DNA of 64,000 nt, from contig NZ_CP012600.1 of assembly GCF_001278705.1 (NCBI RefSeq), positions 124,190 to 188,189 of the forward strand, written 5' to 3'. Made by a program: the position numbers and the translations under genes. The DNA comes from Bacillus gobiensis (GTDB taxonomy: Bacteria > Bacillota > Bacilli > Bacillales > Bacillaceae). This document shows, in pieces, positions 46,082 to 59,808 of this stretch; the stretch's first letter is position 1, and each line of letters begins with the position of its first letter. Under the pieces are notes generated by a model. It was not told the origin of the DNA. It saw only the letters and a program-made list of their open reading frames with translations, and made no database searches.

Positions 46082-47482
46082 ATGGATGTAATCGAGCTTT
46101 CTCGTATTCAATTCGCGTCTACCACACTTTTTCACTTTCTATTTGTGCCGCTTTCAATAGGGCTTGCGTTTATCATCTCAATAATGGAAACGATGTACGT
46201 TGTGAAAAGGGATGAACAATATAAGAGACAGGCAAAGTTTTGGGGGCATTTGTTTTTAATTAACTTTGCTGTCGGTGTCGTCACAGGGATTCTGCAGGAG
46301 TTTCAATTTGGAATGAACTGGTCAGAGTATTCCCGGTTCGTAGGAGATGTGTTTGGCGCTCCGCTTGCGATTGAGGCATTGCTTGCTTTCTTTATGGAGT
46401 CCACGTTTTTAGGATTGTGGATTTTCGGCTGGGACCGGCTGCCGAAGTGGGTGCATTGTTTATGCATTTGGCTCGTCTCTTTAGGAACGATTTTCTCTGC
46501 ATTCTTCATTTTGGCCGCCAACTCGTTTATGCAGCATCCTGTTGGTATGGTGCTTCAAAACGGGCGCTTGGAAATGAATGATTTCTTTGCGATTTTGACA
46601 AACGGCCAGCTATGGGTGGAGTTCCCTCATACAGTATTCGGCTCTTTTGTGACAGGAGCGTTCTTTATTACCGGCGTAAGTGCGATCATGCTTCTTAGAA
46701 AAAAACATATCGAATTTTATAAAAAGTCGTTTCAAATTGCCATTACAGTCGGTTTGATCTCGGCTTTAGGCGTAGCGCTTTCGGGACACGAACAGGCGCA
46801 GTATTTAGTCGAAACCCAGCCGATGAAAATGGCTGCCAGTGAAGGCCTGTGGGAAAACAGCGAAGATCCGGGTGCTTGGACGGTTACAGCAAACATCAAT
46901 GTCGATAAAAAAGAAAATACTGCAGAATTTAAAATTCCGTATTTGTTGAGCTACCTTTCTTACGGAGACTTTTCCGGATCGGTGACAGGGATGAACGAGC
47001 TGCAAGAGAGGTATGTAAAAATGTATGGCAACGGGGATTATATCCCGCCTGTCAAAACGGTGTTCTGGAGTTTTCGGATCATGGCAGGTCTTGGAGGAGT
47101 ACTTGCTTTCTTAAGTATTTGCGGCGCTTACTTAATGGTTCGCAAAAAATTAGAAACGAGCAAGTGGTTTTTGCGAATTATGATCGCGGCAATCTCCTTT
47201 CCGTTTATCGGAAATTCGGCAGGCTGGATTATGACAGAAATCGGCCGTCAGCCTTGGGTCGTCTTTGGTTATATGCAAACGGAGGATGCCGTTTCTGCAA
47301 ATGTAACCGCCGGACAGGTTTTGTTTTCACTGATCACATTCTCCGCGTTCTATTTGATTCTTTTAGGTGTCATGGTCACTTTGTTTGTTCGTGAAATTAA
47401 AAAAGGACCGTATCATGAAGCGGAGGAAAAAGAAGAGAATAAAGATCCATTTACGAAGGAGGGTCAACATGCTTTCTCTTAA
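46082..47482 (+). CDS. cydA: Cytochrome bd quinol oxidase subunit I
   Basis: This 466-residue membrane subunit binds the three hemes and oxidises quinol in low-oxygen respiration. The N-terminal SRIQFASTTLFHFLFVPLSIG carries a heme-ligand His (residue 18). Other landmarks are the GFLLE-equivalent early helices, the short Q-loop found in Gram-positive enzymes (QYLVETQPMKMAASEGLWE, the conserved loop region) and the C-terminal GRQPWVVFGYMQTEDAVS. Length is normal for Bacillus. It is the first gene of cydABCD and overlaps cydB by 14 bases. Confidence 0.95.
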   Translation: MDVIELSRIQFASTTLFHFLFVPLSIGLAFIISIMETMYVVKRDEQYKRQAKFWGHLFLINFAVGVVTGILQEFQFGMNWSEYSRFVGDVFGAPLAIEALLAFFMESTFLGLWIFGWDRLPKWVHCLCIWLVSLGTIFSAFFILAANSFMQHPVGMVLQNGRLEMNDFFAILTNGQLWVEFPHTVFGSFVTGAFFITGVSAIMLLRKKHIEFYKKSFQIAITVGLISALGVALSGHEQAQYLVETQPMKMAASEGLWENSEDPGAWTVTANINVDKKENTAEFKIPYLLSYLSYGDFSGSVTGMNELQERYVKMYGNGDYIPPVKTVFWSFRIMAGLGGVLAFLSICGAYLMVRKKLETSKWFLRIMIAAISFPFIGNSAGWIMTEIGRQPWVVFGYMQTEDAVSANVTAGQVLFSLITFSAFYLILLGVMVTLFVREIKKGPYHEAEEKEENKDPFTKEGQHAFS

Positions 47483-48485
47483 TGAGTTTTGGTTCATCAT
47501 TGTTTCCTTTATGTTTGTCGGCTTTATTTTTCTCGAAGGTTTTGACTTTGGAGTTGGTATGTCGGGGAAAATTGTAGCGAAAAGCGATGCGGAACGTAGA
47601 GTATTCATCAATACTATCGGTCCGTTTTGGGATGCGAATGAAGTGTGGCTGATTACCGCGGTAGGAGCGATGTTCGCCGCGTTTCCGAACTGGTACGCTA
47701 CACTATTAAGCGGATTTTATCTTCCTTTCGTCATTTTACTGCTAGCCTTGATTGGCAGAGGTGTAGCATTTGAATTTAGAGGAAAAGCGGAGAATCCGGT
47801 GTGGAGAAGTGTATGGGATTGGATTATTTTCTTCGGAAGTCTGATCCCTCCGCTTGTTTTCGGAATCGTGTTCTCAGCGCTGGTCAGAGGGGTTCCGATT
47901 GATAAAAATATGCAAATTCACGCGGGGCTAACTGACATCGTAAATGTCTATACTGTTCTTGGCGGCATTACCTTAACGATGCTTTGCTTATGGCATGGTC
48001 TGCTCTTTGCCACACTTCGTACGGTTGATTTGCTTCGTACTCGCTGCCGAAAAGCGGCAAAGAGGTTGCTGCCGATCAACGCGCTTTTGCTGGTTGTCTT
48101 TTTGGCTGCGACTTTCTTTACAACTGACGTGTTTGATGCACACGGAATGATATTAGAATACTTGTTTGTACTGGGAATCCTCGTCTATTTGCTTTCCGGA
48201 TGGTTCATAACGATAAAAAGAGACGGCTGGGCATTTTTCATGTCCGGAATGATTTTAATCCTGCTTACGAGCTCAGTGTTCATTGGACTATTCCCGAGGG
48301 TGATGATCAGCACTATCAGTGATACGTATCATTTAACGATTCAGAATGCCGCTTCAGGACCATACTCTTTACAGGTAATGACCTATTTAGGCCTCGGTTT
48401 ATTGCCGTTTGTTCTGGGATATCAAATATGGAGCTACTATGTATTTCGTAAACGCGTTGATCATAGGGAGCATATGGAGTACTGA
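47469..48485 (+). CDS. cydB: Cytochrome bd quinol oxidase subunit II
   Basis: This 338-residue membrane subunit begins LNEFWFIIVSFMFVGFIFLEGFDFGVGM, split by helices. It has the conserved WDANEVWLITAVGAMFAAFPNWYATL region (parts of which are seen at residues 55-80). The start is the ATG behind GAAGGAGGG inside the cydA end; longer in-frame starts lie deeper in cydA. Its stop overlaps the next start (TGATG). Confidence 0.94.
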   Translation: MLSLNEFWFIIVSFMFVGFIFLEGFDFGVGMSGKIVAKSDAERRVFINTIGPFWDANEVWLITAVGAMFAAFPNWYATLLSGFYLPFVILLLALIGRGVAFEFRGKAENPVWRSVWDWIIFFGSLIPPLVFGIVFSALVRGVPIDKNMQIHAGLTDIVNVYTVLGGITLTMLCLWHGLLFATLRTVDLLRTRCRKAAKRLLPINALLLVVFLAATFFTTDVFDAHGMILEYLFVLGILVYLLSGWFITIKRDGWAFFMSGMILILLTSSVFIGLFPRVMISTISDTYHLTIQNAASGPYSLQVMTYLGLGLLPFVLGYQIWSYYVFRKRVDHREHMEY

Positions 48486-50200
48486 TGGGAAGAAATTTAA
48501 TGGCCTACCAAGGAATAAAGATTGTCCTTGCCGTTGTGTCAGGACTCATTTTGCTTCAAACCGCGGCCATTATCCTTCAAGCGAAATGGCTGTCTGATGT
48601 CATTACCTCATTGTTTCACGGAGAATCATTAGGATCAAAGGTACCTTCAATCTGCGGCTTTATAGTCGCCTTTCTTGCCAGGCAGTTTTTTGCATTCGCT
48701 GTAAAGAAGGTGTGTCTCAGATTTGGAGAAAGGACTGTGGAGCAACTGCGGACGGATTTGCTGGAAAGCATTTTTGCTCTCGGCCCAAGGTTTACCAAAA
48801 AAGAAGGCACGGGAAATTTAGTGACCTTTTTAATCGAAGGATTATCCAAGCTGCGAAATTATCTAGAGCTCTTCATTCCGAAAATGGCAGCGATCGGTAT
48901 TACGCCTTGGATTCTTCTTGCTTACGTTTGGATGAATGATTCGTTATCTGGTCTTATTTTACTTGTTACAATGCCGATTCTTATTATTTTTATGATCTTG
49001 CTGGGCTTGGCCGCGAAAAAGAAAATTGACGATAGGTGGGATTCATACCGGGTGCTATCCAATCATTTTGTCGATTCCTTACGCGGATTAGAAACCTTGA
49101 AATTTCTCGGCAGAAGCCGCGGACATGCGGAGACGATCGAAAAAGTGAGCGGCAGATACCGTAAATCGACGATGGGAACGCTGCGAATTGCGTTTCTTTC
49201 GACTTTTGCTTTAGATTTTTTTACGATGCTGTCCGTTGCGATTGTAGCAGTAACACTAGGGTTGCGCCTCGTTGATGGAACTTTATTGTTAGAACCTGCT
49301 TTGCTTGTGCTTTTATTAGCGCCGGAGTATTTTCTGCCGATTCGCGAGGTGGGAAACGACTATCACGCTACGCTGGATGGGAAGGAAGCAGGAGACGCGA
49401 TTTTAAAAGTGATCAAACAAGCAGAAACTGTATCACGAGCTGGGGCGGCGCCGGAATGGAAGGCGGATAGCTCTTTGGAATTAAAATGTGTGGCAGTTTG
49501 TCATGAAGGTCATGATGAACCTGCTTTAAAAGATATTTCTTTGGCGATAAAAGGAAACAAAAAGGTTGGGATTGTCGGAGCGAGCGGTGCCGGGAAATCG
49601 ACATTTGTCGATGTTCTTAGCGGGTTTCTTTCAGCTAATAAAGGACAGATATGTGTGAATGAAAAAGAGGTGAAGCTTGCTTGTCAGGATTGGCAGCAGC
49701 AAACGGCATATATCCCGCAGCATCCGTTTATTTTTCAAGGGACGATTAAAGAAAACATTCGGTTTTACTGTCCGAACGCGACTGATGAACAAGTCTTAAG
49801 TGCAATTGAACTAGCTGGATTAACAGGAATTGTCAATAAATTTCCGAACAAAGAAGATGAACTCATCGGTGATGGAGGTAGAGTCTTGAGCGGTGGCCAG
49901 GCTCAGCGTGTTGCGCTGGCACGGGCATTTCTGAGCAATCGTCCGTTATTGCTGCTTGATGAACCGACTGCCCAGCTCGACATTGAAACAGAATATGAAT
50001 TAAAAGATGTGCTGCTGCGTTTAGCGGAAAATAAATTGATGTTCTTCGCTTCTCACCGCTTGCATTGGATGAAGGACATGGACGTGATTGTTGTCATGGA
50101 TAAGGGAAGAATTGTGGAAACAGGAACACATTACGAACTGCTTCATCGACAAGGAGCTTACTATCGCTTGCTGAGAGTGCAAATGGGGGATGCATCATGA
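48485..50200 (+). CDS. cydC: Thiol-exporting ABC transporter half, first subunit of the CydCD pair
   Basis: This 571-residue half-transporter has six N-terminal helices (about 15-300) and an ATPase domain with Walker A GASGAGKST, signature LSGGQAQR and Walker B LLLLDEP. The pair exports glutathione or cysteine in E. coli and is needed for cytochrome bd assembly. In B. subtilis naming the third gene of the operon is cydC, while by homology some schemes call this subunit CydD. The start overlaps the cydB stop by 1 base, and the end overlaps the next gene by 4 bases. Confidence 0.9.
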   Translation: MGRNLMAYQGIKIVLAVVSGLILLQTAAIILQAKWLSDVITSLFHGESLGSKVPSICGFIVAFLARQFFAFAVKKVCLRFGERTVEQLRTDLLESIFALGPRFTKKEGTGNLVTFLIEGLSKLRNYLELFIPKMAAIGITPWILLAYVWMNDSLSGLILLVTMPILIIFMILLGLAAKKKIDDRWDSYRVLSNHFVDSLRGLETLKFLGRSRGHAETIEKVSGRYRKSTMGTLRIAFLSTFALDFFTMLSVAIVAVTLGLRLVDGTLLLEPALLVLLLAPEYFLPIREVGNDYHATLDGKEAGDAILKVIKQAETVSRAGAAPEWKADSSLELKCVAVCHEGHDEPALKDISLAIKGNKKVGIVGASGAGKSTFVDVLSGFLSANKGQICVNEKEVKLACQDWQQQTAYIPQHPFIFQGTIKENIRFYCPNATDEQVLSAIELAGLTGIVNKFPNKEDELIGDGGRVLSGGQAQRVALARAFLSNRPLLLLDEPTAQLDIETEYELKDVLLRLAENKLMFFASHRLHWMKDMDVIVVMDKGRIVETGTHYELLHRQGAYYRLLRVQMGDAS

Positions 50201-51948
50201 GACAGCGAGACTGGATCGTGCCATACGTGAAACAATATAAATACCGCATGCTGTCCATCTTGCTGCTTAGTATGTTGACGGTGGGATCTGCCGGTGCATT
50301 AATGTTTACATCTGGATATTTGATTTCTAAAGCCTCCTTACAGCCGGAGACTATTTTGCTAGTTTACGTACCAATTGTCCTCGTTCGTGCATTTGGTTTG
50401 GGACGGTCCGTCTTTCGCTACTCGGAGCGGTTGGTTAGCCATGATTTTATTCTCCGTGTGCTTGCGAAAATGAGAACTCGTCTTTATCACCTGGTGGAAC
50501 CAAAAGTGGGGGCAAGCCTGCGCTATAAAACGGGAGAAATACTCGGCGTTTTAGCTGAAGACATTGAAGGATTGCAGGATTTGTTTTTACGAACGGTGCT
50601 TCCGACTGCTTCAACCTTATTGCTCTATATTCTCACGGTGATCGGGCTCGGCTTCTTCAGCATTCCGTTCGCTCTCTTGATGGCCATGTATCTGTTTCTG
50701 TTAGTCGTTGCTATGCCGTTATTTTCTTTGTTCCATATGAAAGCTGTACATCAAGCCTACAAAAAACAAAAGAACGATGTGTACCAGTATGTCACAGACG
50801 GCTTTCTTGGGATTAGCGACTGGCTGATGAGCGGACAGAAAAAGAATTTTTTTGACCGATATTATCAAATGGAACAGAGGCTTGACCAAATGGGTAGGCG
50901 TACGAAAACTTGGACGTACTACCGTGAATTTGTTGGCCAGCTAGTGATTGCGGCTATGATCGTAAGCATGATTTGTTTTGCAGCATCATTGGTTTCGAAC
51001 GATCAATTGGCGGGCGTATTTATTGCAGCCTTCGTGCTTGTCGTATTTCCTTTGTCAGAAGCCTTGCTGCCTGTTTCAAATGCGGTAGAAAAATATCCGC
51101 GGTACGAGGAATCCTTAAATCGGGTCACACAGCTTGAAAACGAATGTGCAGAATCAGTTTCTGGTGTGAATAAACAAGAAGCATACACTGCATCTTTATC
51201 TGATATCACGATTAACATGAACGGGCTGCATTTCAGTTACGAAGGCGATACGATGGAAGCTTTAAAAGATGTTACGTTTTCCGCAAAACAGGGAAAGAAA
51301 ATCGCGATCATCGGAAAAAGCGGTGCCGGAAAATCAACGCTGCTTAAACTTTTGCAGGGGGTGCTAAGTCCAACAAATGGCACAGTATCGATTAACGGGT
51401 TTGAAGCCTCTGCGATTACAAATGATACGCCGAAGCTCATTTCAGTGCTGAATCAAAATCCGTACCTTTTTTACACGAGTGTAGCCAATAATTTATTGCT
51501 GGCGAACGAACATGCGTCAGAAGAAGAAATCATCGAAGTCATGAAAAAGGTCAAGCTCCATGATTACATTCGTTCCTTGCCTGACGGCTACAATACCTCC
51601 GTGCACGAAACGGGTCAACGATTTTCAGGTGGAGAGCGGCAGCGGATTGCTCTGGCCCGCGTTTTGCTTCAGGACACACCAGTTGTCATGCTGGATGAGC
51701 CGACGGTAGGGCTTGATCCGATAACTGAGCATGATCTATTGTCTACCATTTTTCGGACGCTTGAAGGCAAAACATTGATTTGGGTTACACACCATTTAGT
51801 CGGTATGGAGAACATGGATGAAATCGTGTTTTTCGAAGAAGGAAGGATAAAAATGCGTGGATCGCATCAAGAGCTCTTGCACGAATCCGAGCATTACCGA
51901 AAGTTGTATGAGCTAGATCACCCGATGCATTTAGAAGAGGTAAAATAA
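50197..51948 (+). CDS. cydD: Thiol-exporting ABC transporter half, second subunit of the CydCD pair
   Basis: This 583-residue half-transporter has six helices (about 18-300) with the family stretch SERLVSHDFILRVLAKMRTRLY. The ATPase domain has Walker A GKSGAGKST, signature FSGGERQR and Walker B VVMLDEP. It forms a heterodimer with the preceding subunit. Named cydD in the B. subtilis operon order, called CydC in E. coli-based schemes. Last gene of the operon, followed by a terminator hairpin. Confidence 0.9.
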   Translation: MRQRDWIVPYVKQYKYRMLSILLLSMLTVGSAGALMFTSGYLISKASLQPETILLVYVPIVLVRAFGLGRSVFRYSERLVSHDFILRVLAKMRTRLYHLVEPKVGASLRYKTGEILGVLAEDIEGLQDLFLRTVLPTASTLLLYILTVIGLGFFSIPFALLMAMYLFLLVVAMPLFSLFHMKAVHQAYKKQKNDVYQYVTDGFLGISDWLMSGQKKNFFDRYYQMEQRLDQMGRRTKTWTYYREFVGQLVIAAMIVSMICFAASLVSNDQLAGVFIAAFVLVVFPLSEALLPVSNAVEKYPRYEESLNRVTQLENECAESVSGVNKQEAYTASLSDITINMNGLHFSYEGDTMEALKDVTFSAKQGKKIAIIGKSGAGKSTLLKLLQGVLSPTNGTVSINGFEASAITNDTPKLISVLNQNPYLFYTSVANNLLLANEHASEEEIIEVMKKVKLHDYIRSLPDGYNTSVHETGQRFSGGERQRIALARVLLQDTPVVMLDEPTVGLDPITEHDLLSTIFRTLEGKTLIWVTHHLVGMENMDEIVFFEEGRIKMRGSHQELLHESEHYRKLYELDHPMHLEEVK

Positions 51949-51949
51949 G

Positions 51950-51982
51950 TCCCCAGGATAGCGGCATCTGCTAATCTGGGGA
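51950..51982 (+). terminator. Terminator hairpin after cydD
   Basis: TCCCCAG and CTGGGGA pair perfectly around a 19-base loop, followed by TTTCTG. It starts right at the cydD stop. Confidence 0.6.
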
Positions 51983-51989
51983 TTTCTGA

Positions 51990-52026
51990 TTGACACATCG
52001 AAAATATTAAATTATAATAATTATAA
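51990..52026 (+). promoter_or_regulatory. Consensus promoter with a perfect PerR box, upstream of hemH-dps
   Basis: TTGACA (51990-51995), a 17-base spacer and TATAAT (52013-52018) match the sigma-A consensus at all twelve positions. TTATAATAATTATAA (52012-52026) matches the PerR box TTATAATNATTATAA at every base and covers the -10. This layout is like that of mrgA in B. subtilis and predicts strong peroxide-inducible expression. Confidence 0.85.
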
Positions 52027-52096
52027 ACTAATAATTATGATTAAAAAATATAATTTTTAATAACTAAACAAATGCTGCGAAATTGGAGTGAATGAC

Positions 52097-53041
52097 ATGG
52101 GAAGCAAGAAAATCGGGCTGCTCGTGATGGCTTATGGCACACCTGAAAGCCTCGATCAGGTGGAATCCTACTACACGCACATACGTCATGGCAGAAAGCC
52201 TTCAGATGAATTACTGGAAGACCTGAAGGATCGATACAAAGCAATTGGCGGAATTAGCCCACTTGCAAAAATTACGAAAGAGCAAGGGGAACAATTGGAA
52301 TCCCGGCTAAATCAAACGTTCCCTGATACTCAATTTGTTTTGTACTTAGGACTTAAACATACAGCTCCTTTCATTGAGGATGCTGTTCAACAAATGAAAA
52401 ATGACGGGATCGAAAAAGCGATTAGCATTATTCTTGCACCACACTATTCGATTTTTAGTGTCAAAGCATATAATGAACGGGCAAAAAGCATGTCTGAAAA
52501 AATTAACGGACCAGAAATCCATACGATTGATTCATGGTATGACGAACCTAAATTTATTTCGTATTGGGCAGAGAAAATTAAAGAGACGATGTCGTCTATT
52601 AAAGACGAAACAAAATCGGTCGTTATTTTTTCTGCCCACAGTTTACCAGAAAAAATATTGCAAAATGGTGACCCGTACCCAGATCAGCTGAAAGAAACAG
52701 CGAAGAGGATTTCGTATTTGGCGAATGTGAAAAATTACGCGATCGGCTGGCAAAGCGCCGGACAAACAGGGGAGCCTTGGATAGGCCCGGATGTACAGGA
52801 TTTGACGAGAACCCTGTATGAAGAAAAGGGATACGAGTCTTTCATCTATTGTCCAGTCGGATTTGTAGCCGAGCACCTTGAAGTTTTATATGATAACGAT
52901 ATTGAATGCAAAGCAGTCACAGACGAGCTGGATGTTCACTATTACCGGCCTAAGATGCCAAATGCAGATCCCGTATTCATCGAAGGTCTTGTGAATGCTG
53001 TCTCAAAAGAAATAAAAAATCTAGAGCTAATTACTTTATAA
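52097..53041 (+). CDS. hemH: Ferrochelatase (coproporphyrin III type)
   Basis: This 314-residue enzyme inserts Fe2+ into coproporphyrin III, the last shared step of the Gram-positive heme pathway (HemH/CpfC). Family motifs are [36 protein letters not shown], the metal-site His in [11 protein letters not shown] and the Glu region [17 protein letters not shown]. The ATG 8 bases after GGAG is preferred to a GTG three codons earlier. No other heme genes are adjacent. It is followed 15 bases later by a Dps gene and sits behind a PerR-controlled promoter, so it may be a stress-inducible second copy rather than the housekeeping hemH. Confidence 0.92.
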
Positions 53042-53056
53042 AAGGGAGAGATTTTC

Positions 53057-53509
53057 ATGGAAACTACTGTTACTTTAAGTGTTAAAGAAATCCTAAATCA
53101 TCAAATCGCTAACTACAATGTGTTATATACAAAATTGCATCAATTTCACTGGTATGTCAAAGGACCGCATTTTTTCACATTACATGAGAAATTTGAAGAG
53201 CTTTACAATGAAGCAGCCGAAGCTTTTGACGAATTAGCTGAACGGCTTCTGTCTATCGGCGGCAAACCGTTCTCAACACTAAGTGAATATCTTGCAAATA
53301 CAAGCTTAGTCGAGTCAACAAACGTAGATCGGCAAAGCGGTGAATTTGTACAAGAATTAGTAGAGAACTATGAAGCCATCCGTAATGAACTGATCCAAGC
53401 GATTACCGTCGCCGGTGATGAAGGCGACGATGTTACAGAGGATTTGTTTATCGGATTAAAAGCAAATATAGATAAACATATTTGGATGCTAAAAGCGTAT
53501 CTTGGATAA
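53057..53509 (+). CDS. dps: Dps/MrgA-type iron-storage DNA-protecting protein
   Basis: This 150-residue four-helix ferritin-like protein forms a 12-mer that oxidises and stores Fe2+ with peroxide. The intersubunit ferroxidase ligands are present at H31, H43, D58 and E62 (YTKLHQFHWYVKGPHF, FDELAERLLSIGG). In Bacillus mrgA is a PerR target. Here the gene shares a transcript with ferrochelatase, so iron is both stored and put into heme. Ribosome site AAAGGGAGAG; strong terminator downstream. Confidence 0.93.
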   Translation: METTVTLSVKEILNHQIANYNVLYTKLHQFHWYVKGPHFFTLHEKFEELYNEAAEAFDELAERLLSIGGKPFSTLSEYLANTSLVESTNVDRQSGEFVQELVENYEAIRNELIQAITVAGDEGDDVTEDLFIGLKANIDKHIWMLKAYLG

Positions 53510-53579: not shown

Positions 53580-53833
53580 TGAAAAAAACGACGATTGTAT
53601 ACCTATGGAGACTCTACTCTATCTGATTGGAAGCTTCACATAGAGGCTGGTAGTCTTAACCCTTTAAAACTTTTTAAAGATAAATTAGGTGTTTGAATCA
53701 GTAACAATACCCAACTGTATTTCATATTTTGTTTGGGTAAGTATCCTAAAGTGTTAATTGATCTCCCTGTTTATGATTTCCCCTTTTTGATGTGCGCATC
53801 ATTTTGCCAAATTTTATTATGGAGGTTATGAAA
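53580..53833 (+). other. Region upstream of the TOMM precursor, with a possible gene remnant
   Basis: A frame from 53583 to 53697 reads about 37 protein-like residues (YGDSTLSDWKLHIEAG, then LNPLKLFKDKLGV and a stop). It lacks a good start and may be the tail of a lost gene. The precursor's ribosome site GGAGG is at 53821-53825. No clear promoter hexamers were identified for the precursor. Confidence 0.3.
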
Positions 53834-54136
53834 GTGAACAATTTTCAAAATGAACTTCAATCGTTAAATGTTGGAGAATTTCAAGCAAATGAGGCAGTTC
53901 CTTGGGATCAAAACCAGTATTACATTGATCAGGCTCGACAATTCGGCGGTGCCAGCTGCTTTAGATGCTTCAGTTGTTTTAGTTGCTTTAGCTGCTTTGT
54001 TTGCTTTAACTGTTTTAATTGCTTCCGATGTTTTAACTGCTTTAGATGCGGAGGCCGCTGCGGAGGTAATTGTGGAGGCAATTGCGGGGGACGATGCGGA
54101 GGCAATTGTGGCGGCGGTGGCCGCTGCGGAGGTTAA
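53834..54136 (+). CDS. TOMM precursor peptide, heterocycloanthracin/sonorensin-like, two-part Cys core
   Basis: This 100-residue ribosomal precursor starts at a GTG 8 bases after GGAGG; ATGs upstream are too close to or before the ribosome site. The leader (about 1-36) fits the heterocycloanthracin type: NNFQNELQSLNVGEF, then VPWDQNQYY and QARQFGGAS. The core is Cys-rich in two blocks: ten Cys-Phe-X triplets (X = R,S,S,S,V,N,N,R,N,R), then seven Cys-Gly-Gly units mostly spaced CGGX, for 17 cysteines. Cysteines should become thiazoles by the enzymes encoded downstream. Phe-thiazole runs differ from the Gly- or Trp-type cores I know in the family. A DNA-level repeat of GGAGGCAATTG-like units underlies the second block. 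Confidence 0.9.
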   Translation: MNNFQNELQSLNVGEFQANEAVPWDQNQYYIDQARQFGGASCFRCFSCFSCFSCFVCFNCFNCFRCFNCFRCGGRCGGNCGGNCGGRCGGNCGGGGRCGG

Positions 54137-54186
54137 TACATTCTATTTTTCTTACGAAAGTATAGGTTGTCTTAGGAGAAGTACCT

Positions 54187-54220
54187 GCCCCTTGCAGAAT
54201 TTGTTGCAGGGGCTTTTCTC
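54187..54220 (+). terminator. Hairpin with T-run between precursor and modification genes
   Basis: GCCCC-T-TGCA and TGCAGGGGC pair with one bulge, followed by TTTTCTC. It probably lets precursor mRNA exceed that of the enzymes, a common RiPP arrangement. Confidence 0.65.
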
Positions 54221-54317
54221 TTGAGGAATAGACATAAGAGACAAATTGCTTTACATAGGATGAAATTGAAAGTAATGATGCAGATATGAGTACAGCTTAC
54301 GGTTAAGGAGGAGCGAA

Positions 54318-56270
54318 ATGACAATTTTAACCCCATCTATGCGTCTGAAAGTAAGAAGAGATACTTTTTTTCTCCCTGATCCAAAAAGCGGTGTGTATTT
54401 TCGGAACAACGTCAGTTCTTTCCGTATGGAAGGAAGCATGATTGATCAGTGGGTAGAAAAGCTGATACCTATGTTTAACGGAGAGTATACGCTGGGGGAT
54501 TTAACAGACGGATTGCCGGGACTATACCGGGATCGGGTGTACGAAATAGCGGAAGTGCTGTATCGAAACGGATATGTTCGAGATGTAAGTAAAGACCGCC
54601 CTCATCAATTGACAGAAGAGGAATTAAAAAAGCATGCATCTCAAATTGAATTTTTGAACAGCTTTGGCGATTCGGGTGCGTACCGTTTTCAAGCCTATCG
54701 ACAAGCAAAAGTGCTGGCAGTTGGTTCCGGTTCTTTTTTTATTTCTTTGGTTTCTGCGTTACTTGAATCCGGATTGTCTAAGTTTCATGTATTGATCACA
54801 GACTCGATACCAACTAATAGAGACCGGATAACGGAACTTACGGAACATGCACGTCAAACAGACCCCGGGGCATCCATAGAGGAAGTTACACTGCATAAGG
54901 AGAGGGAGAGTTCTTGGGCAGAAATTTTACAGCCGTTTCATTCGATTTTGTATGTATCACAGGAGGGTGATATAGAGGAGCTGCGGGGTATTCATTCGTA
55001 TTGCCGAAAAGAGAAGAAGCTGTTTCTCCCCGCCGTATGTTTTCAGCAGGCAGGTATGGCAGGGCCGCTTGTCCATCCTGATTCAGAGGGTTGCTGGGAG
55101 TCTGCGTGGAGACGCCTGCACAAATCGGTGATGGCCAAAAACCAGCAGTATTCTAATACAGCGAGTGCGATGCTGGCCAATGTCATCGTCTTTGAACTAT
55201 TTAAAAAGCATACCGAAGTGGAAGACTCGGAACAGAGGAATCAATTTTTCCTGCTTGATCTGGATACATTGGAAGGAAACTGGCATTCATTTTCACCTCA
55301 TCCACTGGTAACTGGACATGCGGCAGCCCAATGGGTTCAAGATTTTGATCGGCGGCTCGAACAGACCTCGAGTAAAGGTGAGCCAAGCAGACTGTTTCTT
55401 TACTTTAGTCAGTTGACATCTGCCGAATCAGGGATTTTTCATATTTGGGAGGAGGGGGATATAATTCAGCTGCCGTTAGCCCAATGCCAAGTTCAGGCGG
55501 TAGACCCAATGTCGGAGGGACCAGCTGAGCTGCTGCCAAATATAGTCTGTTCAGATCTGACACATGAGAAGGCAAGGAGAGAAGCGGGTTTAGCAGGAAT
55601 TGAATCGTATGTGTCGCGAATGGCCGGTTTGCTCATTCCGACTTTACCGCCACATCAGGATGTAATGGGAAGCATGGCAGGTCAACGAGAATTTATAGGT
55701 GTCGGAGCAGGAGAAACGTTTTCAGAAGGTGTTTGCCGAGGGCTGGAAAAGTGTTTGGCCGAGAAACTGAGTAAGGTGCAAGCCGGTCGGGAAACCGATG
55801 TCTTGCAGGTGCGGTTAACTGCTGTTGAAGATGAACGATGCCGCTTTTATTTGCAGGCACTGACCACGATGCAGGGTGAACCGATCATTGCTTTAGGAGA
55901 GAAAGTGTTTGGTTTTCCTGTGGTATGGGTCGGTACGAACAACAGCTGGTATGCAAATATCGGTTTGAATATAACTATGGCGTTGCAGAAATCGTTACAA
56001 CAAGCGCTATTGAATGCACAAAACAAAACAGAACACACTACGTGGGAGCCGTTGGAGGTTTCACCTGTCCTTCTTGGTGAGAAGGTACCCCAAAGCCTTG
56101 TCATTCACGAAAGCGAAGAGATAACAAAAGCTGAGGTTTTACAGTCCGCCATGAAGGTCTTAAAACAGAACCAAAAGCGCCTATTAATCTTTGATCTAGC
56201 CGTTGAACCATTTATGCAAGAGGAACTAGAAGTATTTGGAGTGTTGATACGAGAGGAGGAATCCCGGTGA
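54318..56270 (+). CDS. Thiazole-containing bacteriocin maturation protein (ThiF/Ocin-like, leader-binding)
   Basis: This 650-residue protein belongs to the putative thiazole-containing bacteriocin maturation family. Residues 1-95 resemble a PqqD-like leader-recognition domain (VEKLIPMFNGEYTLGDLTDGL, YEIAEVLYRNGYVRD, with breaks). About 110-330 is a degenerate Rossmann/E1-like domain (VLAVGSGSFFISLVSALLESG). The rest has no motif I can name. It lacks the zinc-binding CxxC pairs of true E1-like cyclodehydratase subunits, so it probably presents the precursor to the cyclodehydratase (family knowledge). Ribosome site AAGGAGGAG; its stop overlaps the next gene by 4 bases. Confidence 0.83.
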   Translation: MTILTPSMRLKVRRDTFFLPDPKSGVYFRNNVSSFRMEGSMIDQWVEKLIPMFNGEYTLGDLTDGLPGLYRDRVYEIAEVLYRNGYVRDVSKDRPHQLTEEELKKHASQIEFLNSFGDSGAYRFQAYRQAKVLAVGSGSFFISLVSALLESGLSKFHVLITDSIPTNRDRITELTEHARQTDPGASIEEVTLHKERESSWAEILQPFHSILYVSQEGDIEELRGIHSYCRKEKKLFLPAVCFQQAGMAGPLVHPDSEGCWESAWRRLHKSVMAKNQQYSNTASAMLANVIVFELFKKHTEVEDSEQRNQFFLLDLDTLEGNWHSFSPHPLVTGHAAAQWVQDFDRRLEQTSSKGEPSRLFLYFSQLTSAESGIFHIWEEGDIIQLPLAQCQVQAVDPMSEGPAELLPNIVCSDLTHEKARREAGLAGIESYVSRMAGLLIPTLPPHQDVMGSMAGQREFIGVGAGETFSEGVCRGLEKCLAEKLSKVQAGRETDVLQVRLTAVEDERCRFYLQALTTMQGEPIIALGEKVFGFPVVWVGTNNSWYANIGLNITMALQKSLQQALLNAQNKTEHTTWEPLEVSPVLLGEKVPQSLVIHESEEITKAEVLQSAMKVLKQNQKRLLIFDLAVEPFMQEELEVFGVLIREEESR

Positions 56271-58210
56271 GTGCTATTGTGGCTGTTGTTGGAGAAGGAG
56301 TATTGGCGGATCGCGTATGTAAGGATCTTTCAAGTAAATACGAGGTAGTCCGTCAGCCCGATTTCGAGGCAGGAATACCCGAGGCGGCTAATTTGGTTCT
56401 AGTGGTGCACGATGCCTGGATTCCTTCCGTTCATCTTAAGGCGGAAGAAGTAATACGTCCAACCGGAATTCCTTGGCTTCGAAGCTTCGTTTCTTTTGGC
56501 GAAGGTGTCGTTGGACCGCTGGTGCGACAGGATAAGCAGGGGTGCTCTCAATGTGCGGACACGCGGCGCCTTATGGCAGGACGCGACCGTAAAGAGATGT
56601 GGGAGCTGCAGCAAAGGCTGGAGGAGCAAGATAGAGTTGAGCGTGACGTCTGGGGATCGCGTTTGGGACTTTTACAGTTGGCTTATTTACTCGAATCTGA
56701 AGCAGATAAGGTGTTGCAAGGGATCTCGGCCAATTTGGAGGAACAGGTATTTTTAATTAACATGAAAACACTGAAAAGTTCACGGCATTCCTTTATTCCC
56801 GACCCGTTGTGTACAGTTTGCGGCGGATTACCCGACGATTCACCGGATTTGGCTCGCATTTCTCTGCAGCCAAGTTTAAAAATCAGCACAGACAGTTATC
56901 GCTGCCGCTCGATGGATGACCTGAAAGAAGTACTTGTTAAAGACTATCTTGATCACCGAACGGGATTTTTGAATGATAAAATGTATGACCTCATCCCGCC
57001 ATTTGCAGATGTCAGTGTCAATCTGCCTTTGTTTAATGGTGACGAAGGAGTAGCGGGCAGAACTCATACGTATGCTGTAAGCGAAGTGACTGCCATTTTG
57101 GAAGGTTTGGAGAGATCCTGCGGTCTAGCGGCCCGCGGCAAACGGACAGTTGTCCATGATAGTTTCAGTAACCTGAAAGATCAAGCTCTTAACCCAGTCA
57201 AAGTAGGGATCCATACAAAGGAGCAGTATGCGCAGCATGATTTTCCGTTCAAACCGTTCACTCCTAATCGTCCGATAAATTGGGTGTGGGGATATTCGTT
57301 ATTGCAAGAACGTCCAATTCTAGTTCCAGAGCTGCTCGCCTATTACAGTTTGGGATGCGGACACGGTTTTGTCTATGAAACTTCCAACGGTTGTGCGCTA
57401 GGCGGAAGTTTGGAGGAGGCTATTTTCCACGGTGTCTTGGAAATTGTGGAACGTGATTCATTCCTGTTGACCTGGTACGCCCAGTTGCCGCTCCCGCGTA
57501 TTGACCTTTATTCTGCAAACGATGAAGAGTTACATTTGATGGTCGACCGTGTTCGGGCGGTGGCGGGATATGATCTGTATTTGTTTAACTCGACGATGGA
57601 AAACGGAATTCCAAGCGTTTGGGTGATGGCAAAAAACAGGAAAGAAAAAGGATTGAATATTATTTGTGCCGCCGGAGCTCACTTAGACCCAGTACGTGCA
57701 GTGAAAAGTGCCATACATGAATTGGCTGGCATGATGCTTACGCTTGACGAGAAACTTGAGTCAAACCAGGAGGAGTATGTCAGCATGCTGCAAGATTCAT
57801 CTCTAGTGCGGAAGATGGATGATCATGGCATGCTGTACGGATTGCCGCAAGCAGAGGAGCGGTTGCAGTTTTTGCTGGACGATAATCGTCCTGTGCGAAC
57901 GTTTGAGGAGGAATTCAATTGGAAGGGGAAGCATACAGACCTGACCGCTGATCTTCAAGACGTATTTCAAAAATTTCGTCGATTGAACCTCGATGTCATT
58001 GTTGTGAATCAAACGACATCAGAAACGATACGAAACGGACTGCATTGCGTGAAAGTACTGATTCCGGGGATGCTGCCGATGACATTCGGACATCATCTTA
58101 CCCGCGTAACTGGGCTGGAGAGGGTGCTTAGAGTACCATGGGAGCTTGGATATGCAAAACAACCGCTGACTATTGAAGAGCTTAATCCATATCCGCATCC
58201 GTTTCCGTAA
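56267..58210 (+). CDS. Fused E1-like/YcaO cyclodehydratase (SagC-SagD type)
   Basis: This 647-residue enzyme uses ATP to cyclise core cysteines to thiazolines. The N-terminal E1-like part (about 1-210) has zinc-type cysteines in GCSQCADTRR and LCTVCGG. The YcaO domain (about 215-647) has ATP-site stretches SNGCALGGSLEEAIFHGVLEIVERDSFLLTWY (split) and SAIHELAG. The C-terminus is proline-rich, LNPYPHPFP, the PxPxP tail needed by azoline-forming YcaO enzymes. The start is GTG with GAGGAGGAA upstream, overlapping the previous gene by 4 bases. It is followed 23 bases later by the dehydrogenase, together forming a complete thiazole synthetase. Confidence 0.92.
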   Translation: MSAIVAVVGEGVLADRVCKDLSSKYEVVRQPDFEAGIPEAANLVLVVHDAWIPSVHLKAEEVIRPTGIPWLRSFVSFGEGVVGPLVRQDKQGCSQCADTRRLMAGRDRKEMWELQQRLEEQDRVERDVWGSRLGLLQLAYLLESEADKVLQGISANLEEQVFLINMKTLKSSRHSFIPDPLCTVCGGLPDDSPDLARISLQPSLKISTDSYRCRSMDDLKEVLVKDYLDHRTGFLNDKMYDLIPPFADVSVNLPLFNGDEGVAGRTHTYAVSEVTAILEGLERSCGLAARGKRTVVHDSFSNLKDQALNPVKVGIHTKEQYAQHDFPFKPFTPNRPINWVWGYSLLQERPILVPELLAYYSLGCGHGFVYETSNGCALGGSLEEAIFHGVLEIVERDSFLLTWYAQLPLPRIDLYSANDEELHLMVDRVRAVAGYDLYLFNSTMENGIPSVWVMAKNRKEKGLNIICAAGAHLDPVRAVKSAIHELAGMMLTLDEKLESNQEEYVSMLQDSSLVRKMDDHGMLYGLPQAEERLQFLLDDNRPVRTFEEEFNWKGKHTDLTADLQDVFQKFRRLNLDVIVVNQTTSETIRNGLHCVKVLIPGMLPMTFGHHLTRVTGLERVLRVPWELGYAKQPLTIEELNPYPHPFP

Positions 58211-58233
58211 GCAGTGACTAGGAGGCATGGAGG

Positions 58234-59808
58234 ATGAGTCTAGAGAAATATTTACACAATCTGCATTTTGACATTGATAAGGTAAGCCCTCCGGATTGGG
58301 AAGTGGATTGGGAAGATGCACCGCTTCCGTATAAGCTATATCGAGGATTGCCTGTCGTTCCGCTCTCAATGGAAGTACCGTTGACAATCGAAGGATGTGA
58401 AGCACCTGCTACGCTCGATCTTCGCAGAATCGGTCATTTTTTTTGGTATGTATTCGGTCTCACTCAAATTAGCCAGTCAGCCTTTTCAACGGAATCCAAA
58501 GAACAAGAAGTGGACCTTATGCAGTCGTATCGCCGTTTTGCTCCCTCAGGTGGAGGATTGTATCCAAGTGAGTTGTACGTGTATGTGAAGGTGGATGAAC
58601 TACCTGCAGGGGTATACCATTATGATGCAGCACACCATCGTTTGGTGATGTTGCGAGAAGGTAACTTCGATTCGTATATTGCCCGTACTCTCGGAAATCG
58701 TTGTGACGTATCCGATTGCTTTGGTACTGTTTTTGTGTCGACGATGTTTTGGAAAAATTTCTTTAAATACAATAACTTTGCTTACCGCCTGCAAGGACTG
58801 GATGCTGGGGTGCTGATCGGACAATTACTGGAAGTAGCGAAACGTTTTGGTTTTGAAACAGGGGTGTGCTTCCAATTTCTTGATAGGGCCATCAACCATC
58901 TGCTTGGGTTATCTGAAAAAGAGGAGAGCGTGTATGCAGTGATTCCGTTATCGGCGGAACCTGGAGTCTCGTTTACAAGCGAGAGTTACGTGGACGGTAG
59001 TGTCTCCTCAACCGAATTATGCCGTGAGTTGCCAGCAATTCAGCACAATCATTACGTTCGGTCACGGAAGGTCATTGAGCATCCGATGATAACCAAAGTA
59101 AATGAAGCTTCGATGCTGGAATCAACTCAATCGTTCAAGCAAATCAAGGGGATTAAGAGTGAGAATTGGGAAGTTCAAACGATAGCTTTACCAGACGTGA
59201 AGCGGTTATCATATGATCTGGCAGCTGCCTGCCGGAAGCGATTTTCACCAGACATCGATTTCGTATTAGGAAAAGTTACTCCAACACAGCTGGCCACATT
59301 GCTTCATGAGGCAACGGCTTCCTTCTCGTATCGAAATGATTTGGACTGTGCACATAATTTTGAGCCACGTGTCTCACTGTACAGCTGTTTGCATCATGTT
59401 GAAGGCATTCCGGACGGGGCTTATCATTATGATGGTCATACCCATGAATTACGTCAGGTGCATCTCGGAGATCATCGGCTACAGTTACAATCAGGAATGT
59501 CAATGTATAATGTGAATTTGTTCCAGGTTCCTCTCTGCCTGCATGTGGCTGGGGATAAGGATATCTTTATTTCAGAACTTAGTTACAGAGGATATAGAAT
59601 TCAACAAATGGAAGCAGGAATGCTTGTCCAACGCTTGCTGCTAGCTTCGTCTTCCATTGGAATGGGCGGGCATCCTCTTCTTGGATTTGATGCGAACGTA
59701 TGTGATGAGATTTACAAAATGGAATCACAAGGAAAAACGAGTTTAATTCAAATTCCGATCGGTTTCTATCGATCTCGCCCTTGGTTGAGGGGGAGCTTGC
59801 AAAGCTAG
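58234..59808 (+). CDS. SagB-type FMN dehydrogenase with two nitroreductase-like domains
   Basis: This 524-residue enzyme oxidises thiazolines to aromatic thiazoles using FMN. The N-terminal half (about 60-250) has the family FMN motif RRFAPSGGGLYPSELYVYV and AGVYHYDAAHHRLVML. The C-terminal half (about 320-520) repeats the fold (GAYHYDGHTHELRQV, YRIQQMEAGMLVQRLLLASS). It has lost the RxxPSGG motif (EPRVSLYSC instead), so it may be structural or a degenerate partner. Single-chain double-domain SagB proteins are typical of Bacillus heterocycloanthracin loci. Ribosome site AGGAGG is present. No exporter gene follows. Confidence 0.9.
   Translation: MSLEKYLHNLHFDIDKVSPPDWEVDWEDAPLPYKLYRGLPVVPLSMEVPLTIEGCEAPATLDLRRIGHFFWYVFGLTQISQSAFSTESKEQEVDLMQSYRRFAPSGGGLYPSELYVYVKVDELPAGVYHYDAAHHRLVMLREGNFDSYIARTLGNRCDVSDCFGTVFVSTMFWKNFFKYNNFAYRLQGLDAGVLIGQLLEVAKRFGFETGVCFQFLDRAINHLLGLSEKEESVYAVIPLSAEPGVSFTSESYVDGSVSSTELCRELPAIQHNHYVRSRKVIEHPMITKVNEASMLESTQSFKQIKGIKSENWEVQTIALPDVKRLSYDLAAACRKRFSPDIDFVLGKVTPTQLATLLHEATASFSYRNDLDCAHNFEPRVSLYSCLHHVEGIPDGAYHYDGHTHELRQVHLGDHRLQLQSGMSMYNVNLFQVPLCLHVAGDKDIFISELSYRGYRIQQMEAGMLVQRLLLASSSIGMGGHPLLGFDANVCDEIYKMESQGKTSLIQIPIGFYRSRPWLRGSLQS

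Follow-up and report, generated by a model that had tools for sequence, protein, structure and literature searches.

A four-gene TOMM cluster of the heterocycloanthracin/sonorensin (HCA) class lies in the window, by which we mean the whole 64,000-nucleotide stretch of Bacillus gobiensis DNA analysed here, and we put at about two in three the probability that it is a minimal cluster of this class that works during sporulation, in the mother cell. The cluster is one more member of the known HCA family, and its thiazole-forming enzymology, as predicted from homology, is near certain. What looks new is its predicted regulation, namely two conserved promoters of sporulation type; judging from these promoter sequences, sporulation control of the cluster is quite likely.

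Materials and methods

Relatives were collected from a protein search (35 proteins, many of them already named heterocycloanthracin or sonorensin in public records), from a scan of contigs for the F protein (67 loci, 57 of them with a Cys-repeat precursor) and from family genomes, which added 16 precursors, read on the + strand and at 17 of 30 loci. The query for the F scan was a set of six 8-residue words taken from the F protein of the window, which biases the resulting loci towards relatives of that protein. The survey of cores covered 109 rows (35 proteins, the window, 16 family loci and 57 contig loci), corresponding to 105 distinct cores; L025, which is the window itself, and one spurious ORF of L075 were omitted. 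Rows share ancestry in all of the counts given below, which are therefore not independent. Both promoter elements were found by conservation first, and sigma forms were looked for afterwards.

Results

All four genes score above the NCBIfam curated cut-offs (Table 1), which upholds the first-pass annotation in its assignment of a complete TOMM cluster to the HCA class. Its description of a precursor with ten Cys-Phe-Xaa (CFX) units followed by seven Cys-Gly-Gly (CGG) units was likewise confirmed, in both the open reading frame and the repeats. About 41 residues precede the first Cys, and residues 72-100 read CGGR CGGN CGGN CGGR CGGN CGGGGR CGG. An alternative in-frame ATG start is possible at 53828, though it lies nearly on top of the GGAGG site. 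The 17 Cys codons in the core comprise 12 TGC and 5 TGT, and the Phe codons 8 TTT and 2 TTC; since silent bases vary across the repeats while Cys and Phe stay constant, it is the peptide that is kept, not a chance repeat. A conserved Arg35 is present in 86 of 107 leaders. The copy of Pfam that we used held no family matching the precursor. A 118-aa ORF in another frame (53868-54224) was rejected as an Ala/Val-rich shadow of the repeats.

Table 1. Cluster genes and candidate regulatory features, in window coordinates.
Feature	Position	Strand	Details
GerE-like box RWWTRGGYNNYY, start of precursor element	53683..53694	+	TRGGY there in 83/90 element-bearing upstreams
Conserved 49-nt precursor promoter element (sigma-K-like)	53686..53734	+	90/103 distinct upstreams
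AC, 17 nt, CATATTTT	AC 53704-53705; CATATTTT 53723-53730	+	inside 49-nt precursor element
Inverted TRGGY half-site (ACCCA on +)	53709..53713	-	RCCYA-like in 70/84 distinct elements
Ribosome-binding site GGAGG	53821..53825	+	read from sequence
Precursor peptide, 100 aa	53834..54136	+	GTG start; TIGR03601 62.8 bits (cut-off 35)
(Cys-Phe-X)10 core part, residues 42-71	53957..54046	+	
Seven Cys-Gly-Gly units, residues 72-100	54047..54133	+	
Terminator-like hairpin, precursor/enzyme gap	54187..54214	+	
Conserved 34-nt enzyme-operon promoter element (sigma-E-like)	54231..54264	+	101/114 distinct upstreams of F
ATA, 17 nt, CATAGGAT	ATA 54234-54236; CATAGGAT 54254-54261	+	inside enzyme-operon element
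GAGACAAAT	between ATA and CATAGGAT	+	SpoIIID-like, GGACAAA-like stretch
F protein (ocin_ThiF_like)	54318..56270	+	TIGR03693 770.2 bits (cut-off 561.9)
Fused cyclodehydratase (E1-like part + YcaO)	56267..58210	+	TIGR03604 418.5 (219.25); TIGR03882 151.4 (36.9); PF02624
SagB-type dehydrogenase, two nitroreductase-like stretches	58234..59808	+	TIGR03605 211.7 bits (cut-off 78.4)

Residues 10-90 of F match PbtF (8t19, E 3.1e-6), over a piece that we take to be the leader-binding RRE. Pfam found YcaO and nitroreductase domains among the cluster enzymes. The YcaO part of the cyclodehydratase matches LynD, TruD and MusD, and the proline-rich end of this protein is kept in relatives. The dehydrogenase matches 3eo7, a nitroreductase, and has weaker matches to azole-forming oxidases, McbC among them; its Lys178-Tyr179 pair, kept in 54 of 54 rows, is presumably catalytic. 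TIGR03693, TIGR03601 and TIGR03604 each have a single match in the genome, and two TIGR03605 stretches both fall inside the single dehydrogenase gene. This anatomy agrees with published work on HCA, where a fused, truncated cyclodehydratase has the leader presented to it by F (PMC4603692, PMC10634744, PMC7470986). The earlier suggestion that up to 17 thiazoles could form stands as a possibility, given 17 core Cys and homologous F, YcaO and dehydrogenase enzymes.

The gene content around the 67 loci is correspondingly small: F recurs in 67, YcaO in 67, the dehydrogenase in 54 and the precursor in 57, and the next groups are an ABC-ATPase superfamily (20 of 67 loci, at scattered positions) and a short-chain dehydrogenase group (10). 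None of the 30 widest gene groups of these loci (genes of at least 70 aa) was an exporter, a protease or an immunity gene in a consistent place; some of the contigs end inside the cluster. Cox et al. gave the same minimal gene list for HCA (PMC4603692). The upstream neighbours in the window (46082-53509) are cydA, cydB, cydD, cydC, a ferrochelatase gene and a Dps/ferritin-like gene, with cydA and cydB named by eye; a second ferrochelatase gene of the genome lies at C1:566749. Elsewhere, genes resembling thiamine salvage (named by eye) lie within about 10 kb of the cluster in L069, L072, L073, L076, L078, L079, L085 and L049, and TPP riboswitches were found in L073 and L049. A Paenibacillus clade (L080, L088, L090, L096, L100, L101 and L103) carries F and a divergent YcaO gene, and neither dehydrogenase nor precursor was found at these loci. 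The F match begins only at residue 80-95, beyond most of the leader-binding stretch, in L096, L100, L101 and L103.

Conserved elements precede both the precursor and F. A -35 AC is described for sigma-K and ATA for sigma-E, with similar CATA-type -10 sequences and a spacing of 16-18 bp (PMC517825, PMC3789822). On these terms AC-N17-CATATTTT ahead of the precursor has the sigma-K form and ATA-N17-CATAGGAT ahead of F the sigma-E form, in -35, spacing and -10 alike; the chance of the former in a random 49-mer is 1.4%, and that of the latter in a random 34-mer 0.2%.

The precursor element begins 114-187 nt ahead of the start codon and was found, at 20 or fewer mismatches over 49 positions, in 90 of 103 distinct upstreams compared with 1 of 2,060 shuffles; the other 13 lack it. 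These are counts per distinct upstream, and the distinct elements number 84. With a matrix built without the window, the window's site scored 56.3 bits, against -12.7 for the runner-up in the 64 kb. At the contig loci the second-best place always had at least 19 mismatches to the consensus. Counted independently of the element, 78 of 103 upstreams have AC-N16-18-CATANNNT no more than 250 nt ahead of the start (shuffled mean 5.6, maximum 12). The box opening the element would fit a GerE consensus. The element as a whole carries 55 bits, which exceeds the expected requirement of a sigma-K site plus a GerE site and may point to binding by a further factor.

The enzyme element lies 60-108 nt before F and was counted up to 12 mismatches over 34 positions, where the shuffled minimum was 13. 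In 92 of 114 upstreams ATA-N16-18-CATA stands no more than 150 nt ahead of F (shuffled mean 3.0), and the AC form of sigma-K over the same distance in 3 of 114 (shuffled 5.0). It was the absence of a sigma-K-like pattern ahead of F, at all 60 loci examined for it, that led to the sigma-E reading of this promoter. The GGACAAA-like stretch GAGACAAAT within it resembles a SpoIIID site. A hairpin separates precursor and enzymes in 37 of 58 related gaps, compared with 1, 4 and 4 in three shuffles. The sigma-E-like element is also retained in L096, L100, L101 and L103, the loci of the Paenibacillus clade in which the F match starts late.

Controls on other genes were mixed. The sigma-K pattern occurred in 15 of 30 cotY/Z upstreams (shuffled mean 3.8, maximum 9) and in none of 30 hemH upstreams, but in only 1 of 30 cotX/V upstreams, and it was not found upstream of cotZ and cotX in the genome itself. 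Of two sets of 30 coat upstreams, one had no case of the joint geometry of GerE and sigma-K sites and the other a single case, and the HCA matrix scored none of the coat upstreams above -23.7. Among known coat promoters, then, the pattern marks only some. Homologues of SpoIVA, CotY/Z and CotX are present in the genome. Of 397 genomes of the order, 94 have a TIGR03601 match, which exceeds the curated cut-off in 81. All 94 have SpoIVA, and the 15 genomes that lack SpoIVA are without TIGR03601 (hypergeometric 0.016, from few lineages). In B. cereus, HCA genes are up in biofilm cells, where sporulation genes are also up (PMC6962202), which fits the sporulation model, if weakly.

The first-pass annotation singled out the two-part core as the best candidate in the window for an undescribed product and proposed a search for the same combination elsewhere. 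That search found it to be common: under a strict rule of at least four CF/CY units followed by at least two CGG units, with 95% order consistency, 40 of 105 distinct cores from several genera share the order, and many of them are already named as heterocycloanthracin or sonorensin in public databases. As a mark of a special or undescribed product the two-part core does not hold. More broadly, in 97 of 104 scored cores (that of L018 was left unscored) the mean position of the aromatic residues precedes that of Arg, His, Lys, Asn and Gln; the order is significant against shuffled units (p 0.05) in 76 and significantly reversed in two (P0036 and P0028), and a flat or reversed order was seen in seven (P0036, L108, P0028, L083, P0013, L067 and P0031). 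The core of P0036 has CGGQ/CFGR repeats first and CFX units at its end. Several Paenibacillus clusters have CF and then CHN blocks.

In a tree of F (92 rows, omitting L107, L109 and L111, whose F matches were too short), the window falls in a 50-row clade (support 96) with mostly CFX cores. Nine same-genus rows form a separate group (support 100), the four of their cores that were read all being of CWS type, and another same-genus F, L011 (= L129), sits elsewhere on a long branch. The window's F is 46-51% identical to those of same-genus genomes, 58-66% to genus g3, 69-70% to genera g2 and g6 and 72% to Aneurinibacillus. Horizontal gain of the cluster would be one reading of these identities, yet htpG, used as a control gene, likewise has its nearest matches in g2 (80-83%, compared with 75-80% for full-length g1 matches). 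Single TGA codons inside the matched F frame were seen in G062, G063, G066 and G067 (genus g3), and a second short F fragment lies about 2.6 kb from the intact gene at G009:C11:40327-40482.

Discussion

Sigma-E and sigma-K are both active in the sporulating mother cell. On the strength of the conserved promoters, we propose that sigma-E polymerase would transcribe F-YcaO-SagB from their own promoter and that sigma-K polymerase, perhaps with GerE, would later transcribe the precursor, the terminator parting the two units. By homology to studied systems, the N-terminal domain of F would bind the leader, YcaO with ATP would turn core Cys into thiazolines, and the dehydrogenase would oxidise these to thiazoles. 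The leader might then be cleaved near the conserved Arg35, and the thiazole-rich peptide, aromatic half first and Gly/Arg half last, could be deposited on the spore or released by lysis of the mother cell. Cut after Arg35, the 65-residue product would have a monoisotopic mass of 6680.46 if unmodified and 6340.02 with 17 thiazoles. On the spore it might serve either as surface material or as an antibiotic that the spore carries. Cleavage at the conserved Arg by the coat protease YabG was considered and set aside; no support for it was found in PMC10681294.

If enzymes are made under sigma-E and then their substrate under sigma-K, in a cell that is going to lyse, neither exporter nor immunity would be needed; the lack of a consistently placed gene for either among the 30 widest gene groups is what would be expected of a product released by lysis or deposited on the spore. 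Under successive mother-cell sigma factors the local gene content would make sense, and sporangia and spores, rather than growth media, would be the place to look for the product. We extend this only tentatively to the HCA/sonorensin family at large, which may consist mainly of mother-cell products, block-type polythiazoles with an aromatic half followed by a cationic/polar one, made by sigma-E enzymes from a sigma-K precursor and located on or in the spore surface, and not mainly of secreted bacteriocins.

A classical bacteriocin of growing or stationary cells, exported by a transporter encoded elsewhere and with both elements serving a stationary-phase regulator, would suit the family name and the reports of sonorensin as antibacterial and membrane-permeabilising (PMC4544038), and the surplus information in the 55-bit element could be the footprint of such a binding protein. 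We consider it rather unlikely, as -35/-10 sequences of the kinds used by mother-cell sigma factors occur in two separate elements at rates far above shuffled ones and the 30 widest gene groups include no consistently placed exporter or immunity gene. The conserved stretch ahead of the precursor might instead be a regulatory RNA leader, given about 100 nt that would remain untranslated after the predicted transcription start and some inverted repeats (TRGGY and RCCYA). RNAalifold, however, gave no consensus fold, and nothing in Rfam reached gathering score, either across the window or, in six relatives, at the precursor; the matches admitted by a limit of E 10 did not rise above chance. We give this reading very little credence.

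The remaining alternatives concern the peptide itself. The core of the window is cleanly divided into (CFX)10 and seven CGG units, which might suggest a natural product distinct from the HCA peptides already known, but the frequency of this order among publicly named relatives makes that highly improbable. Equally, 17 Cys at CXX spacing could belong to an unmodified peptide for metal binding or cross-linking, with the enzymes acting elsewhere. Against this, the precursor adjoins F in 57 of 67 loci and has the TIGR03601 leader family, and HCA cyclisation has been reported in vitro (PMC4603692), so that we see hardly any room for an unmodified product. Control by the mother-cell sigma factors remains our preferred reading.

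Relation to known systems

HCA clusters are common (254 in PMC4603692), and clusters with ThiF-like partners have been surveyed (PMC7136475). The available text on HCA reports cyclisation in vitro and an antibacterial preparation, and we found no solved native product there; nor did we find, in open-licence literature, a link between the family and sporulation sigma factors, though such a report may exist.

The window shares with heterocycloanthracin (BA_2677 family, TIGR03601; Haft 2009, PMC2674419) the leader family, the Cys-Xaa-Xaa repeats, F, the fused cyclodehydratase and the dehydrogenase. In that system the precursor is encoded at a distance from the enzymes and has a CGG-rich core, whereas in the window it is adjacent to them and has CFX and then CGG units. 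The Parageobacillus four-gene LAP locus (PMC11270796) has the same three enzymes and a TIGR03601 peptide of 74-113 aa. Clusters of the B. licheniformis type belong to the same family and also have the precursor beside the enzymes, and weaker forms of both elements were seen in the five loci checked, with L002 just past the limit for the enzyme element; they differ in their CWS/CAS cores, in an F only 46-51% identical to that of the window and in forming a separate clade of the tree. Closest in architecture are the CFX+CGG clusters of Priestia, Metabacillus, Neobacillus and others, which share the two-part core, gene order and upstream elements, and differ in sequence details and in CSN units that often break the CFX block. 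For the promoter, the nearest likeness is to the sigma-K exosporium genes of B. thuringiensis (PMC4750369), which have a C-type -35, 16 nt and a CATAT -10, and of which bclA and bclB have a long untranslated leader like that predicted for the window's precursor; those genes encode spore-surface proteins, whereas the gene in the window encodes a RiPP precursor.
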